Assembly: GCA_030640255.1 (NCBI GenBank)
Contig: DAOWJS010000103.1
Coordinates: forward strand, 1-33,203
Direction: 5' to 3'
DNA from: Dehalococcoidales bacterium
GTDB lineage: Bacteria > Chloroflexota > Dehalococcoidia > Dehalococcoidales > GCA-2688105
DNA length: 33,203 nt
Positions within the stretch are counted from its first letter, which is position 1, and each line of letters starts with the position of its first letter. Shown here in pieces: positions 15 to 5,376 of this stretch. Under the pieces are notes generated by a model. That model was not told the DNA's origin. It did not search any database and saw nothing but the letters and a program-made list of their open reading frames with translations. The translations under genes were made by a program, and so were the position numbers.

Positions 15-1349
15 ATGAGAAAGATTGATGTAAGGATTATAGGGGGAAGTGCTGCTGGCATTGAGGCAGCGATTATTGCCCAACAACAGTACCCTTCTAA
101 GAAGGTTATTGTTGTTCGAAGGGAAGAAAAGACTCTTGTTCCCTGTGGTATCCCTTATATTATGGGAACTTTGGGGTCTGCAGAGGAGGATGTGATACCT
201 ACCGCCCTTTTAGGCGATGTCGAGTTAATAGTTGATGAGGTTACTTCCATTAATAGGGAAGCGAAGAGTATAACTACCACTGGAGGCAAGACTATTGGCT
301 ATGACAGGCTGGTACTGGCTACAGGCTCACGGCCAACGGTACCTCCCATACCAGGTGCTGATTTGGAGAATGTCTTTACCATCAGAAAGGAGATAGATTA
401 TCTCCAGAAACTGAAGGAGGCTTTAAAGCAGGCTAAGGATGTAGTCATCGTTGGTGGTGGCTTCATCGGGGCCGAATTTGCCGATGAGTGCCGCAAGATG
501 GGAGTTAATGTAACCATTATTGAATTACTAGATCACTGTCTCATGTTAAACTGTGATGAGGATTTATGCATCCGAATTGAGGACAAGATGAGAGAAGTTG
601 GGGTACAAGTGAATACTATGTGCCGGGTAAAATCAATTGTTGGCGATAAGAAAGTTGAGCATGTGGAGTGTGATAAAGGGCTGCGTTTTAAAGCAGGCGT
701 AGTAATTCTAGCCATAGGTGTAGTGCCCAACACTGAGCTGGCTCATGATGCCGGATTGAAGATTGGTGAACAGAGAGGCATATGGGTTGACCAGTATATG
801 ATAACCAGTGACCCTAATATCTTTGCCATCGGTGATTGTGCTGAGAAGTTCTGCTTCTTCACCGGTAAACCCACGGCCACCCGTCTTGCCTCAGTAGCTA
901 CCAGAGAGGCTAGAATCGCTGGGGCTAATCTCTTCCAGACACGGCGGCGTAGAAACCGGGGCACCATAGGTGTATTCGGGACTATGATTACTGATACTGC
1001 CATGGGAGTAGCCGGGCTCACTGAGAGAGCAGCCAAGAATTTAGGCTTTGATTTAGTTACCGGAGAAGCAGCCGCGATGGACAAGCATCCCGGAGCAATG
1101 CCAGGTGCTAGAGAACTGCGTGTCAAGCTTATCTTTGACCGAAGTTCAGGGAAAATGATAGGTGGTGAGGCCTGTGGAGGCATAACTGCAGGTGAGATTG
1201 CCAATGTCATGGCTCAAGCTATCGCTGGTGGAATGACAGCAGATGAGATAGCTGCTGCCCAGATAGGCACCCACCCTGCGCTGACAGCATCACCATTAGT
1301 TTATCAGATTGTAAATGCCGCTGAAGAGGCTGTAGTGAAGCTACGTTAA
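15..1349 (+). CDS. FAD-dependent pyridine nucleotide-disulfide oxidoreductase, CoA-disulfide / NAD(P)H sulfur reductase-like
   Basis: A 444-residue flavoprotein. The N-terminal FAD Rossmann motif (GGSAAG, residues 10-15) is followed by a single redox cysteine at residue 44 in VPCGIPY, the arrangement of CoA-disulfide reductases and NADH oxidases rather than the CxxxxC of lipoamide dehydrogenase. A second nucleotide-binding motif (VGGGFIGAEFA) lies near residue 145, and the FAD-binding IFAIGDCAE segment lies further on. The C-terminal dimerisation domain ends with a THP motif reminiscent of the active-site His-Pro of disulfide reductases. There is no C-terminal rhodanese domain. The start is fixed by a near-perfect Shine-Dalgarno sequence (AAAGGAGGAG) at 1-10. 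It leads a co-directional cluster of Fe-S and metal cofactor genes, so reduction of persulfide, polysulfide or CoA disulfide in support of cofactor assembly is plausible, but the substrate is inferred. Confidence 0.85.
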   Translation: MRKIDVRIIGGSAAGIEAAIIAQQQYPSKKVIVVRREEKTLVPCGIPYIMGTLGSAEEDVIPTALLGDVELIVDEVTSINREAKSITTTGGKTIGYDRLVLATGSRPTVPPIPGADLENVFTIRKEIDYLQKLKEALKQAKDVVIVGGGFIGAEFADECRKMGVNVTIIELLDHCLMLNCDEDLCIRIEDKMREVGVQVNTMCRVKSIVGDKKVEHVECDKGLRFKAGVVILAIGVVPNTELAHDAGLKIGEQRGIWVDQYMITSDPNIFAIGDCAEKFCFFTGKPTATRLASVATREARIAGANLFQTRRRRNRGTIGVFGTMITDTAMGVAGLTERAAKNLGFDLVTGEAAAMDKHPGAMPGARELRVKLIFDRSSGKMIGGEACGGITAGEIANVMAQAIAGGMTADEIAAAQIGTHPALTASPLVYQIVNAAEEAVVKLR

Positions 1350-1363
1350 GGAGGAGGAAAGCT

Positions 1364-1642
1364 ATGCCAATTTATGACTTCAGGTGCCGGGAGTGTGGCA
1401 GAGTCTTGAAGATATTTCTTCGTGATACCAATCAGATGGCTCGCTGCTCTGGCTGTGGGAGTGATAATATGGAGAGGCTTTTCTCAACATCCTATATGAT
1501 AAAGATGAATGCTTCAGCGCCAGGTACCACCTGCTGCGGCAGAACCGAGCGCTGTGAAACGCCCCCTGCTCTACAGAGGGCGTATGCCGCAGAGAGTAAA
1601 GGCATATATATGCAGATATTAGCTCAGGAGGTCTATAAATGA
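1364..1642 (+). CDS. FmdB-family zinc ribbon protein
   Basis: A 92-residue protein with the FmdB-type start MPIYDFRCRECG. Two CxxC pairs at residues 8-11 and 28-31 form a putative zinc ribbon. A cysteine-rich tail follows (TTCCGRTERCETPP, roughly residues 55-70), seen in some FmdB relatives. FmdB was named as a putative regulator of formamidase or formylmethanofuran dehydrogenase genes; its biochemical role is not settled. It begins 14 bases after the flavoenzyme with a GGAGGAGG Shine-Dalgarno sequence, and its stop overlaps the ATG of the next gene by four bases (ATGA), so translational coupling is likely. The cysteine-rich tail could bind metal or an Fe-S cluster, but this is speculation. 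Confidence 0.8.
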   Translation: MPIYDFRCRECGRVLKIFLRDTNQMARCSGCGSDNMERLFSTSYMIKMNASAPGTTCCGRTERCETPPALQRAYAAESKGIYMQILAQEVYK

Positions 1643-1977
1643 GGTATGCAATACCAGTAAGTAGCGGCGGGCTATCAGCACACTTTGGTCACTGCGAGCA
1701 TTTCGCTTTGATTGACGTTGATGAAGAAAAAAAGAAAGTTTTGGGAAAGGAGCTTGTCCCCTCACCGGGGCACCAGCCTGGACTTCTCCCCCAATGGCTG
1801 GCTGAGCAGGGAGTCTCAGTGGTGATTGCTGGTGGGATGGGCTCCCGTGCTCAGAGCCTTTTTAACCAAAACCACATCGGCGTTGTCATTGGCGCTCTTG
1901 AGAGCGACCCGGAGAAGGCAGTCTTGAATTATCTGAATGGCATGCTGGCTATTGGGGATAATATATGTGACCACTAG
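1639..1977 (+). CDS. Dinitrogenase iron-molybdenum cofactor (NifX/NifB-type) domain protein
   Basis: A 112-residue single-domain protein of the family that includes NifX, NafY and the C-terminal domain of NifB. The hallmark HFGHCEHF occurs near residues 15-22, followed by a GGMGSRAQ segment typical of the family near residues 69-76. Family members bind and carry Fe-S or FeMo-cofactor precursors. No nitrogenase structural gene is visible here, so it is more likely a general metallocluster carrier of the kind common in anaerobes without nitrogenase. The ATG overlaps the stop of the FmdB gene, and Mrp and IscU-like genes follow, supporting a metallocluster assembly role. Confidence 0.85.
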   Translation: MRYAIPVSSGGLSAHFGHCEHFALIDVDEEKKKVLGKELVPSPGHQPGLLPQWLAEQGVSVVIAGGMGSRAQSLFNQNHIGVVIGALESDPEKAVLNYLNGMLAIGDNICDH

Positions 1978-2004
1978 GACGGAAACTGAAATGGAGGAAA
2001 GCTT

Positions 2005-3009
2005 ATGGTAACTGAGGAGCAGGTAAGGGAAAGCCTGAGTCAGGTGCTGGTTCCCGGTATCAAGCGAAGTCTAGAAGCTTTGAATCTGGTTCGTAAGGTC
2101 ACTGTGTCTGACCAAGAGGTTAAGGTTACTCTGGCTTCAGCAGCGCTAAGTAGTGGTGCTCAGGACTGGGTTAAGACCAAGACGAAAGAAGTCATAGAGA
2201 AGCTACCTGAGGTAAACAAAGTAGAGGTAGAATTTATTGAGGCTAAGCCGGCAGAGCTGAACAAGATTGGCCACACCTTTGCTGTAATGAGTGGCAAGGG
2301 GGGTGTGGGTAAGTCGTTAGTAGCTAGCCTGGCGGCGGTAGTGCTAAAGCGTCAGGGTTATGAGGTGGGTATCCTTGATGCTGACATCACCGGCCCCAGT
2401 ATTCCCAAGATGTTTGGCATCACTGCCCGACCTGCTGGCAGCGAAAGTGGCATACTGCCGGTGCTGTCAAGGTCAGGCATAGCGGTGATGTCCATCAATC
2501 TTCTTCTACCCAGCGAGGATGATGCCGTTATCTGGCGTGGACCCCTGATTGGGAAAACAATTACCCAGTTTGGGGAAGATGTACTCTGGGGCAAACTTGA
2601 TTATCTAATTATAGACCTGCCTCCGGGCACAGCTGACGCCCCACTTACTGTAATGCAATCATTCTCGGTATCAGGGGTTATTATCGTTTTCACCCCTCAA
2701 GACCTAGTTGAGATGATAGTTAGAAAGGCAATAAACATGACTCAAAAAATGGGAAAACCTATCCTGGGTGTGGTGGAGAATATGAGCTATTTATATGTAC
2801 CTGAAATAGATAAAAAAATTGAACTCTTTGGTAAAAGTCACGGAGAGGAAATGGCACAAGCAGCCCATGCTCCGCTTTTGGGACAACTACCAATAGACCC
2901 AGAGTTGGCTAAGCTGTGTGATGAGGGAAATATTGAGCGTTATGATGCTGAAATTATGAATAGCTTCAGTAAGTCTCTTTCCGAAGCGATATCAGCTAAG
3001 GCAGGCTGA
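2005..3009 (+). CDS. Mrp/NBP35 (ApbC) family P-loop ATPase with N-terminal MIP18/DUF59 domain
   Basis: A 334-residue protein. Residues 1-80 form a MIP18-like (DUF59) domain, and the P-loop ATPase begins with the deviant Walker A motif GKGGVGKS (97-104). DADITGPS and IDLPPGT correspond to the switch and Walker B regions of Mrp proteins. Mrp/ApbC proteins bind and transfer Fe-S clusters. The segment after ENMSYL normally carries a CxxC pair that bridges a cluster between subunits; here it reads YVPEIDKKIELFG with no cysteine. The fold is clear, but cluster bridging by the usual ligands is not expected. It lies 27 bases after the NifX-like gene with a GGAGG ribosome-binding site, and an IscU-like scaffold gene follows. 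Confidence 0.9.
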   Translation: MVTEEQVRESLSQVLVPGIKRSLEALNLVRKVTVSDQEVKVTLASAALSSGAQDWVKTKTKEVIEKLPEVNKVEVEFIEAKPAELNKIGHTFAVMSGKGGVGKSLVASLAAVVLKRQGYEVGILDADITGPSIPKMFGITARPAGSESGILPVLSRSGIAVMSINLLLPSEDDAVIWRGPLIGKTITQFGEDVLWGKLDYLIIDLPPGTADAPLTVMQSFSVSGVIIVFTPQDLVEMIVRKAINMTQKMGKPILGVVENMSYLYVPEIDKKIELFGKSHGEEMAQAAHAPLLGQLPIDPELAKLCDEGNIERYDAEIMNSFSKSLSEAISAKAG

Positions 3010-3025
3010 TACAGGAGGCAATGCC

Positions 3026-3475
3026 ATGACTTCATCATGGGAGCAGTTTGAAGAACTTATCAAAGCCGAGATGAGGAAGGTCTACTCCGAGACAGCTATT
3101 GACCATTCCATGAACCCCAGAAATGTAGGCGATATGAAGGATGCCGATGGCTTTGCTAAGGTAACTGGTCCCTGTGGTGATACTATGGAGATATGGCTCA
3201 AAGTAAAGAACGGCACTGTTGCCAATGCTACTTTCATGACTGATGGCTGTGGAACCAGCATTGCCGCAGGTAGCATAGTTACTGAGCTGGCCAAGGGAAA
3301 GAGCATTAGTGAAGCCCGAAGGATTAACCAGCAGGATGTCTTAAGTGCTTTAGGCGGGCTGCCGGAGGAAAGCGAACATTGTGCTCTTCTGGCGGCAAAT
3401 ACACTGAGGGGAGCAATAAGAGATTACCTGGCGATGAAGAAGGAGCCATGGAAAAGGGCTTACCGCAAACATTAA
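3026..3475 (+). CDS. IscU/NifU-like Fe-S cluster assembly scaffold
   Basis: A 149-residue protein matching the IscU/NifU N-terminal scaffold fold: NPRNVG near residues 30-35 and the three cluster-binding cysteines in GPCGD (C50), DGCG (C75) and EHC (C119). An Asp (D52) follows the first Cys, as in IscU. About 18 extra residues precede the canonical YSE start of the family, and a basic tail follows the usual C-terminal DY. IscU takes sulfur from a cysteine desulfurase and builds 2Fe-2S or 4Fe-4S clusters for carriers such as Mrp. No iscS/nifS is visible in this cluster. Spacing of 16 bases to mrp and 15 to mobB indicates an operon. Confidence 0.88.
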   Translation: MTSSWEQFEELIKAEMRKVYSETAIDHSMNPRNVGDMKDADGFAKVTGPCGDTMEIWLKVKNGTVANATFMTDGCGTSIAAGSIVTELAKGKSISEARRINQQDVLSALGGLPEESEHCALLAANTLRGAIRDYLAMKKEPWKRAYRKH

Positions 3476-3490
3476 GGAGAGGAATAGACA

Positions 3491-4138
3491 ATGCCACCCA
3501 TAGTTTCAGTCATAGGTAAATCAAAATCAGGTAAGACAACCCTTATTGAGAAGCTGATTCCAGAATTAAGGTCGCGTGGTTACCGGGTGGCTACCATCAA
3601 GCATATCCCTCAGGGCGTTAGCTTTGATGAGCCAGGTAAGGATAGCTGGCGCCACATTCAGGCAGGGAGCGAGGCTACAGCTATTAGCTCCCCGGATAAG
3701 ATTGTGATGATAAAGCCTGTTGCTCAAGATGCTAGTCTTGATGAGATAGCACGCCTCTTGGGTGAGGACTACGACATTATCTTAACTGAAGGCTTTAAGC
3801 AGGGAAATGTCCCCAAGATAGAGGCCCACCGTAAGGATGCAGGCTCACCCCTCAAAGATATTAAGAAACTTATTGGCATAGTCACCGATGAACCTCTGGA
3901 AACCAAGGCAAGGCAGTTCCCCCTAGACGGTATTAAGGACATTGCTGACCTTCTAGAGAAAGGCTTTATAAAGCCACAAGCAGAGCGGGTATCTCTTCAC
4001 GTTAATAATACGCCCATAACCTTAACCGCCTTCCCTAAGCAAATCATAAGCAATGTCCTTCTGGCTATGGCCTCCTGCCTGAAGGGGGTGGGAGAAATCA
4101 GGAATCTCCAGATTTTCTTGAAGAAGGGGCGAACATGA
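3491..4138 (+). CDS. mobB: Molybdopterin-guanine dinucleotide biosynthesis protein MobB
   Basis: A 215-residue GTPase-like protein with the P-loop GKSKSGKTT at residues 9-17, then VATIKH and the WRHIQAGSEAT segment characteristic of MobB. The EGFKQG motif lies near residues 98-103. MobB assists MobA in making the guanine dinucleotide form of the molybdenum cofactor. The roughly 55-residue C-terminal extension (VNNTPITLTAFPKQI and following) resembles the extra domain seen in some archaeal and Dehalococcoidia MobB proteins. A GGAGAGGA Shine-Dalgarno sequence sets the start. Its TGA overlaps the ATG of a truncated J-domain ORF. Confidence 0.88.
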   Translation: MPPIVSVIGKSKSGKTTLIEKLIPELRSRGYRVATIKHIPQGVSFDEPGKDSWRHIQAGSEATAISSPDKIVMIKPVAQDASLDEIARLLGEDYDIILTEGFKQGNVPKIEAHRKDAGSPLKDIKKLIGIVTDEPLETKARQFPLDGIKDIADLLEKGFIKPQAERVSLHVNNTPITLTAFPKQIISNVLLAMASCLKGVGEIRNLQIFLKKGRT

Positions 4139-4224
4139 GCCTGAAAGATTACTACCAGATACTTGGTGTAAGCAGAGATGCGAGTGCTGGAGATATAAAG
4201 AAAGCCTTCCGCCGCCAATGTTGA
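4135..4224 (+). pseudogene. DnaJ J-domain N-terminal stub
   Basis: An ATG that overlaps the mobB stop (ATGA) opens a 29-residue frame reading MSLKDYYQILGVSRDASAGD then IKKAFRRQC before TGA. This is an unmistakable J-domain helix I and the start of helix II (DYYxILGVxxxAsxxdIKKAFRR), but it stops before the HPD loop needed to stimulate Hsp70 ATPase. No continuation is visible in other frames before the next gene at 4253. It is therefore the broken 5' end of a dnaJ-type gene that once followed mobB in the operon. Whether the peptide is made is unknown. Confidence 0.8.
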
Positions 4225-4252
4225 CAGGGCTAAGGCATGTGGAGGCAGGATA

Positions 4253-5026
4253 ATGGTAAATTCTATTATCTATGGACCGGTACCATCCTGGCGACTAGGC
4301 AGGTCACTAGGTATAGACCTTTTGTCCACCAAAGGAAAGGCCTGCTCTTTTGATTGTATCTATTGTCAGCTGGGAAGGACTACTCACCCACTGGTGGAGC
4401 GAAAGGAGTTTGTCAGCCTGGATAAGCTTGCCGAGGAACTGAAAGTAGTAAGAGACATTGCTGCCGACTATGTTACCTTCTCCGGGGTAGGAGAACCAAC
4501 ATTGGCTTCTAACCTTGGTGAGGCGATAGCGCTGGTAAGGTCAGTTTTAGAACTACCAGTGGCCGTGATCACCAATTCTTCACTAATGACCAGAGAAGAT
4601 GTGCGCCACGAGCTTGGTTTAGCTCATGTGGTGGTAGCCAAGGTGGACGCCCCAAGTGAAGAGCTGTTTCGGCAAATTAACCGGCCTTCTGTAGGATGCA
4701 GCACTCTTGATGGAATTATCCGCTCTATCCAGCTTTTCAGACAGGAATATGAAGGCAAGCTGGCTCTCCAGATGATGTTCGTTGAGGCAAATAAGAGCTA
4801 CGCACCGGAGATGGCAAACATAGCTGAACAGCTCTTACCCGATGAAGTACAGATTAACACGCCGCTACGCCCTTGTGCCGTTCCACCTCTAGCTCCTGAA
4901 GACATTAGCGCCATACGACAGGCATTCTCCAGTCTCAGGGGTGTAGTGACAGTATACCAAGCATCAAGGCCTGACGTTGTCTCTTTGAATCAGGAGGAGA
5001 CGTTACTGCGTCGGCCGGAGCTTTGA
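4253..5026 (+). CDS. Radical SAM Fe-S oxidoreductase (COG0731-like)
   Basis: A 257-residue radical SAM protein. The 4Fe-4S/SAM motif CSFDCIYC occupies residues 31-38 (CxxxCxxC), preceded by the family signature YGPVPSWRLGRSLGIDLL. The SAM-binding GVGEPTL motif (equivalent to GGE) lies near residues 79-85. The protein is about the usual length of these stand-alone enzymes, which are related to the catalytic domain of TYW1 but whose substrate is mostly unknown. A GGAGG ribosome-binding site precedes the ATG. It lies in the same direction as the cofactor cluster, separated from mobB only by the J-domain stub, so it probably belonged to the same transcript. Confidence 0.82.
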   Translation: MVNSIIYGPVPSWRLGRSLGIDLLSTKGKACSFDCIYCQLGRTTHPLVERKEFVSLDKLAEELKVVRDIAADYVTFSGVGEPTLASNLGEAIALVRSVLELPVAVITNSSLMTREDVRHELGLAHVVVAKVDAPSEELFRQINRPSVGCSTLDGIIRSIQLFRQEYEGKLALQMMFVEANKSYAPEMANIAEQLLPDEVQINTPLRPCAVPPLAPEDISAIRQAFSSLRGVVTVYQASRPDVVSLNQEETLLRRPEL

Positions 5027-5052: not shown

Positions 5053-5300
5053 CTCGAGGTTCAGAACTCTCTATCGGATAGGAAGCTTGATATCGAAGAT
5101 ATGTCGCTTACGCAGAGCTATGTGGCTGTTCTGAAGAGCTTACTGGAATCCGCTCCAATACTCGAGCAAAAAGCATACTTGAAGTCATTTGTCAGAAGTA
5201 TTGAGGTATCCAAATCTGAGGTTACTGTAAACTACTCTCTTCCGATGCCCATATCCAATACCGGTAGGGAAAGTGTTGGAGTTCTTGCTTTTAGATTGAG
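5053..5300 (+). pseudogene. C-terminal remnant of a large serine recombinase (resolvase/integrase family)
   Basis: From the codon after an in-frame TGA (5050-5052) the frame reads continuously: the segment around 5101-5265 includes SLLESAPILEQKAYLKSFVR and SIEVSKSEVTVNYSLPMP. This is the typical C-terminal end of large serine recombinases (a coiled region followed by FVrxIeVxxxxVtvxYtiPMP). The catalytic resolvase domain, recombinase domain and zinc ribbon are missing. The frame runs into the tRNA-Lys gene in antisense, ending at 5370, as happens when a recombinase gene abuts the tRNA used as its attachment site. This is a deletion scar of an integrated element; assignment rests on my recognition of the family C-terminus. 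Confidence 0.65.
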
Positions 5301-5376
5301 TGGTAGGCCGTGCAGGTCTCGAACCTGCGACACCCTGATTAAAAGTCAGGTGCTCTGCCAACTGAGCTAACGGCCC
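5301..5376 (-). tRNA. tRNA-Lys (anticodon TTT)
   Basis: The minus strand folds as a complete 76-nt cloverleaf: acceptor GGGCCGT pairs with ACGGCCT (first pair G-U), D-stem GCTC/GAGC, anticodon stem CCTGA/TCAGG with loop CTTTTAA (anticodon TTT), T-arm GCAGG-TTCGAGA-CCTGC, discriminator A and an encoded CCA (5301-5303). The 3' end points at the serine recombinase remnant, consistent with use of the 3' end as an integration site. A promoter-like sequence lies upstream at 5427-5455. Confidence 0.95.

Follow-up and report, generated by a model that had tools for sequence, protein, structure and literature searches.

An ORP-type metal-sulfur cofactor locus with a separate IscU subfamily in a Dehalococcoidales genome lacking a detectable cysteine desulfurase

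The first seven genes of the window (the whole 33,203-nucleotide stretch of Dehalococcoidales DNA that was analysed) form a genuine cofactor-building cluster that is conserved in strict anaerobes and related to the ORP (orange protein) locus of Desulfovibrio. The cluster is probably, at a probability of roughly 0.55, the Dehalococcoidia variant of an anaerobe-specific ORP metal-sulfur assembly locus in which IscU would act as the scaffold, sulfide would provide the sulfur and a flavoenzyme would be an optional component. All seven open reading frames (ORFs) lie on one strand, separated by short gaps or overlapping, as an earlier sequence-only reading of this DNA had described and as inspection of their coordinates confirmed. 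The families named in that reading were borne out by profile matches to Pfam and NCBIfam, and no cysteine desulfurase is visible among the genes of the window. The features, including a short gene remnant, are as follows.

15 to 1349, plus strand: FAD/NAD(P)H oxidoreductase (the flavoenzyme), Pyr_redox_2/CoA-disulfide-reductase-like, placed in a subfamily of its own within the single-cysteine CoADR/Npsr superfamily; Cys44 in PCGIPYI, His358-Pro359 and Thr419-His420-Pro421.
1364 to 1642, plus strand: FmdB-type zinc ribbon protein; TIGR02605, 43.4 bits (cut-off 31.3).
1639 to 1977, plus strand: NifX/Di-Nase domain protein (Nitro_FeMo-Co), Orp8-like; PF02579, 75.6 bits; NF041136 positions 265-364, the C-terminal domain of MrpORP, 123.6 bits.
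2005 to 3009, plus strand: Mrp/NUBPL, an Mrp/Nbp35-type P-loop ATPase of 334 amino acids; deviant Walker A GKGGVGKS, CXXC missing (ENMSYLYVPEID), one cysteine.
3026 to 3475, plus strand: IscU-type scaffold (NifU_N), assigned to the GPCGD/TDGC subfamily; three cysteines and the aspartate of IscU kept.
3491 to 4138, plus strand: MobB P-loop protein with a C-terminal extension; TIGR00176, 136.5 bits (cut-off 76.2).
4135 to 4224, plus strand: truncated DnaJ domain of 29 amino acids, ending before the HPD motif and overlapping the MobB stop codon; PF00226, 31.0 bits, profile positions 1-24 of 63.
4253 to 5026, plus strand: radical SAM protein (Pfam).

Base 1 of the window is a contig edge (G000:C85:1), so the sequence upstream is beyond reach. 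Misbinning of the contig was considered and is unlikely because rpsB, which is single-copy in the genome, shares the contig with the same IscU in G033 and G023 too. The DnaJ remnant (MSLKDYYQILGVSRDASAGDIKKAFRRQC) is placed between the MobB and radical SAM genes, and at the matching position in G020 a complete J-domain protein of 99 amino acids is found beside a GPCGD/TDGC-type IscU. J proteins are also encountered in the neighbourhood of other loci with ORP genes or the flavoenzyme (L068, L107, L149, L179). Further downstream in the window, an ORF of 89 amino acids at 5101-5370 that has no Pfam match and overlaps a tRNA-Lys gene (5301-5376, minus strand) could be what is left of a gene next to the tRNA.

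Related loci were sampled by similarity to the proteins of the window; many contexts end at contig ends, and counts refer to the matches listed. The composite order compiled from relatives is DUF134-DUF364-DUF5320-NifX-MinDFd-MinDFd-[FAD or CoA-binding]-FmdB-NifX-Mrp-IscU-MobB-rSAM, in which two MinD-type ATPases with ferredoxin domains, NifX, DUF5320, DUF364 and DUF134 lie upstream of the block. L117, L118 and L119 have the gene order MinDFd-MinDFd-flavoenzyme-FmdB, as would be expected for the edge of the window, and in G003 too the MinD-ferredoxin pair lies immediately upstream of the flavoenzyme. A search of the window's own assembly, which is 93% complete and where the window starts at a contig edge, did not find the pair, so that the ORP core is incomplete in the genome as assembled. 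The published ORP complex includes Orp3/Orp4, which have ferredoxin motifs, as well as Orp8 and MrpORP (PMC6345978). The Desulfovibrio locus (Orp3, Orp4, Orp5, Orp8, Orp9) resembles the present one in combining NifX/Di-Nase proteins and Mrp within one locus of strict anaerobes and, with regard to the window's relatives, in having MinD-type ATPases that carry ferredoxin motifs. NifX and Mrp correspond to the two halves of MrpORP (NCBIfam match), yet here they are separate genes (1639-1977 and 2005-3009) rather than an Mrp-Di-Nase fusion. The window Mrp also differs in lacking CXXC, and the window-type locus adds IscU, FmdB, MobB, the radical SAM protein, DUF134, DUF5320 and the flavoenzyme. Literature searches found nothing direct on a link between IscU and ORP or on an Mrp without CXXC.

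No second full-length Mrp was found in the assembly of the window, whose Mrp keeps the deviant Walker A motif (GKGGxGK[ST] pattern). In characterised members of the family the CXXC motif binds a bridging 4Fe-4S cluster and is essential in vivo (PMC6345978). The motif is missing at its canonical place in all 30 window-type Mrps of the order Dehalococcoidales at the loci examined, so its loss is a lineage trait that is not tied one-to-one to IscU. IscU adjoins the window-type Mrp in 18 of these 30 loci, usually with NifX before and often with MobB after. A rule by which CXXC is lost exactly where IscU adjoins Mrp was perfect in the first sample and failed the wider check; 12 of the 30 CXXC-less Mrps have no adjoining IscU, and the loss is thus not simply compensated by IscU.

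The IscU of the window shares its fold, three cysteines and aspartate (C50, D52, C75, C119) with the scaffold of the MIS/ISC (IscS-IscU) systems. In contrast to these systems, there is no IscS in the locus or in the assembly (93% complete), and the window protein carries GPCGD and TDGC instead of PVCGD and TFGC and falls on the other side of the IscU tree. Among the 45 sequences of that tree, all 13 IscS-adjacent IscUs are found on one side of one branch (support 92/73; 0/500 shuffles), and the opposite side holds bacterial and archaeal IscUs, the ORP-linked ones included. The cysteines, the aspartate and the histidine are kept in both groups, which are told apart by GPCGD versus PVCGD and TDGC versus TFGC, the second of each being the IscS-adjacent type. 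A further phylum sample gave a similar division: IscUs of the PVCGD/TFGC type stand beside IscS in 19 of 22 cases, versus none of four for the GPCGD/TDGC type, all four of which are next to Mrp (the first motif was unreadable in one). As judged from the tree and these motifs, the window IscU is a member of a separate subfamily (GPCGD/TDGC) that spans bacteria and archaea and was not seen beside IscS. In genomes that have a desulfurase (G024, G033, G041), this IscU might still take sulfur from it. Two complete genomes, G009 and G045, were considered as models and rejected, since IscU identity is no more than 34-35% there and no ORP genes adjoin the gene.

A genome-wide search for desulfurase and SUF genes extended the desulfurase gap, pointed out earlier for the cluster, to the whole assembly. 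A profile search with Aminotran_5 (PF00266) detected no cysteine desulfurase in the 965-kb assembly (103 contigs, 93% complete), where the sole match is below threshold and reads as histidinol-phosphate aminotransferase (HisC). For comparison between genomes, class-V matches of at least 150 bits were counted as strong and as desulfurase-type, on score alone, and by this measure 22 of 61 genomes have none. Weaker Aminotran_5 matches (about 100 and 142 bits) were considered as hidden desulfurases and rejected, since by eye the sequences read as serine-pyruvate aminotransferase and SerC. Among the 39 related genomes that are at least 85% complete, SUFBD is kept in all 13 that have no desulfurase versus 13 of the 26 that have a desulfurase (Fisher p=0.0014; genomes taken singly, kinship ignored). 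The window's own genome encodes smsC overlapping smsB at L077 5317-7354 (G000:C41), separate from the locus described here. Its SmsC has a C-terminal cysteine that is followed about 19 residues on by C-x-x-C (...RISCGGDP...GYEECIKC...), and these three residues closely resemble C218, C239 and C242, which hold the cluster in SmsC of M. jannaschii (PMC12192291). SmsC-SmsB, the minimal SMS system, works without a desulfurase by using free sulfide and rescues E. coli lacking ISC and SUF if sulfide is supplied; in the literature found, SMS is the only system shown to use sulfide (PMC12192291). Because SUFBD is kept in all 13 desulfurase-less genomes and the genome has an SmsCB of its own, its lack of a desulfurase is credible and fits a type already known. 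The sulfide-using SmsCB, and not the flavoenzyme, offers the best explanation for this absence. The likeness to SMS lies in the presence of SmsC-SmsB, with its three SmsC cysteines, elsewhere in the same genome and in the dispensability of a desulfurase, whereas the window's locus is separate and IscU is no part of SMS. Two genomes of one genus appear to differ in their Fe-S systems: G000, the window's genome, has SmsCB and an ORP-type IscU without IscS, and G001 has IscS-IscU pairs and lacks SUFBD, the window-type Mrp and the flavoenzyme.

It is rather unlikely that the window IscU is an ordinary scaffold that works in trans with a desulfurase hidden in an assembly gap, so that the absence would be an artefact of an incomplete genome. 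The division of the assembly into 103 contigs at 93% completeness would allow for such a gap, as would two further absences, namely those of the MinD-ferredoxin pair and of an Aminotran_5 protein that scores about 100 bits in the relatives and was read as serine-pyruvate aminotransferase. However, genomes with the same IscU that are up to 98% complete (G036, G006, G056, G058, G003) have only matches of the serine-pyruvate aminotransferase/SerC type, the well-covered genomes without a desulfurase all keep SUFBD, and residue differences set the window-type IscU apart.

The flavoenzyme (444 amino acids) resembles Npsr, CoA-disulfide reductase and NAD(P)H sulfur reductase in superfamily, in the single redox cysteine within PCGIPY and in the FAD and NAD(P)H folds. 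Among solved structures it is matched best by 6pfz, a persulfide reductase from Archaeoglobus (PMC7969121). Among the 91 relatives listed, Cys44, the single redox cysteine, and His358-Pro359 are invariant, and His420 is kept in 87. The invariant His358, the C-terminal THP motif and the replacement of the Tyr-Tyr of HYYPG in the CoADR alignment distinguish the enzyme from the CoADR/Npsr group, and the C-terminal rhodanese domain of Npsr has no Pfam match in it. Its score against the CoA-disulfide reductase equivalog TIGR03385 is 246.2 bits, less than half the cut-off of 578.8. These characters indicate a distinct subfamily of the CoADR/Npsr superfamily, for which reduction of CoA disulfide, persulfide or polysulfide is a putative activity. 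The subfamily is widespread in anaerobes, Moorella, Thermoanaerobacter and archaea among them. An ORP marker lies within eight genes of the flavoenzyme in 28 of the 47 full-context loci listed, from many phyla, and at least two markers are present in 19 of the 47. A rhodanese-type paralogue, used as a control, has an ORP marker at none of 10 loci (p=0.0008 versus the flavoenzyme; kinship ignored), and the flavoenzyme can therefore be regarded as a real associate of ORP loci. A CoA_binding_2 protein often replaces or follows it between the MinD-ferredoxins and NifX (L068, L117, L118, L255, L256, L269), and a CoA-linked sulfur step is possible there. The flavoenzyme of L116, on a contig binned as Latescibacterota, is 81% identical to that of the window; L116 may belong to Dehalococcoidia and have been binned wrongly, or it may reflect a recent transfer.

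The sequence-only reading had proposed a line of assembly driven by this flavoenzyme, which would reduce CoA persulfide or polysulfide and feed the sulfide to IscU in place of IscS. Parts of that interpretation have stood: the assembly has no detectable desulfurase, IscU is without an IscS partner and the block NifX-Mrp-IscU-MobB is conserved within the order Dehalococcoidales. The invariant catalytic cysteine, the match to a persulfide reductase and the occurrence of the flavoenzyme in or next to such clusters (in the window, G003, L117-L119 and archaea) would also suit it. The proposal is nevertheless quite unlikely. About 26 of the 33 genomes that carry the flavoenzyme have a strong class-V desulfurase-type enzyme, and at three loci (L174, L135, L124) such an enzyme is in or adjoining the flavoenzyme's own cluster, so the flavoenzyme is no stand-in for a desulfurase. 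Within the order its presence has no association with desulfurase loss (p=0.20; kinship ignored), and as a general rule replacement is not supported by these co-occurrence counts. In the order, most loci with this IscU are without the flavoenzyme, which adjoins IscU in only two of about 13 examined (the window and G003). Nor is the flavoenzyme needed to account for the missing desulfurase in a genome that has SmsCB, a system whose studied relative has been shown to use free sulfide directly.

A role in the maturation of a heterometal (Mo/W or Mo-Cu) cofactor or of molybdoenzymes, with IscU as a source of Fe-S precursor and MobB and FmdB as the link to molybdopterin, is improbable. In many loci MobB comes after IscU or Mrp, some flavoenzyme loci adjoin molybdopterin oxidoreductases (L132), and ORP-type proteins bind a Mo-Cu-S cluster, according to work cited in PMC6345978. 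On the other hand, several loci (L063, L065, L067) lack MobB, and the MobB of the window is extended at its C terminus and has no neighbouring MobA.

The preferred reading, a sulfide-fed variant of the ORP locus, can be put in the form of a working scheme. The ORP core would be composed of MinD-type ATPases with ferredoxin domains, NifX and Mrp. IscU would hold or build the cluster that the CXXC-less Mrp can presumably no longer bind by way of CXXC, and this Mrp would act as the ATP-dependent partner of IscU. NifX and the MinD-ferredoxins may receive or insert the cluster. The sulfur source is expected to be free sulfide, as for SmsCB elsewhere in the genome, and the flavoenzyme would be an optional NAD(P)H-driven reductase of persulfide, polysulfide or disulfide that gives sulfide or electrons and does not substitute for a desulfurase. 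More tentatively, and with less than even odds, the locus may belong to a dedicated metal-sulfur machine of anaerobic bacteria and archaea that has an IscU of its own subfamily, ORP-type ATPases, no desulfurase, a supply of sulfide and the flavoenzyme as an accessory reductase; in Dehalococcoidia the ATPase partner would, as part of the same tentative claim, be the Mrp without CXXC.

These findings bear on the way in which strict anaerobes build iron-sulfur clusters when they have no cysteine desulfurase. If the GPCGD/TDGC subfamily of IscU does work from sulfide, IscU scaffolds would not depend on desulfurases as a matter of course, and ORP loci, which are poorly understood, would acquire a defined scaffold along with a function open to testing. 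The occurrence of the single-cysteine flavoenzyme subfamily in cultured Moorella and Thermoanaerobacter provides a handle for experiments.
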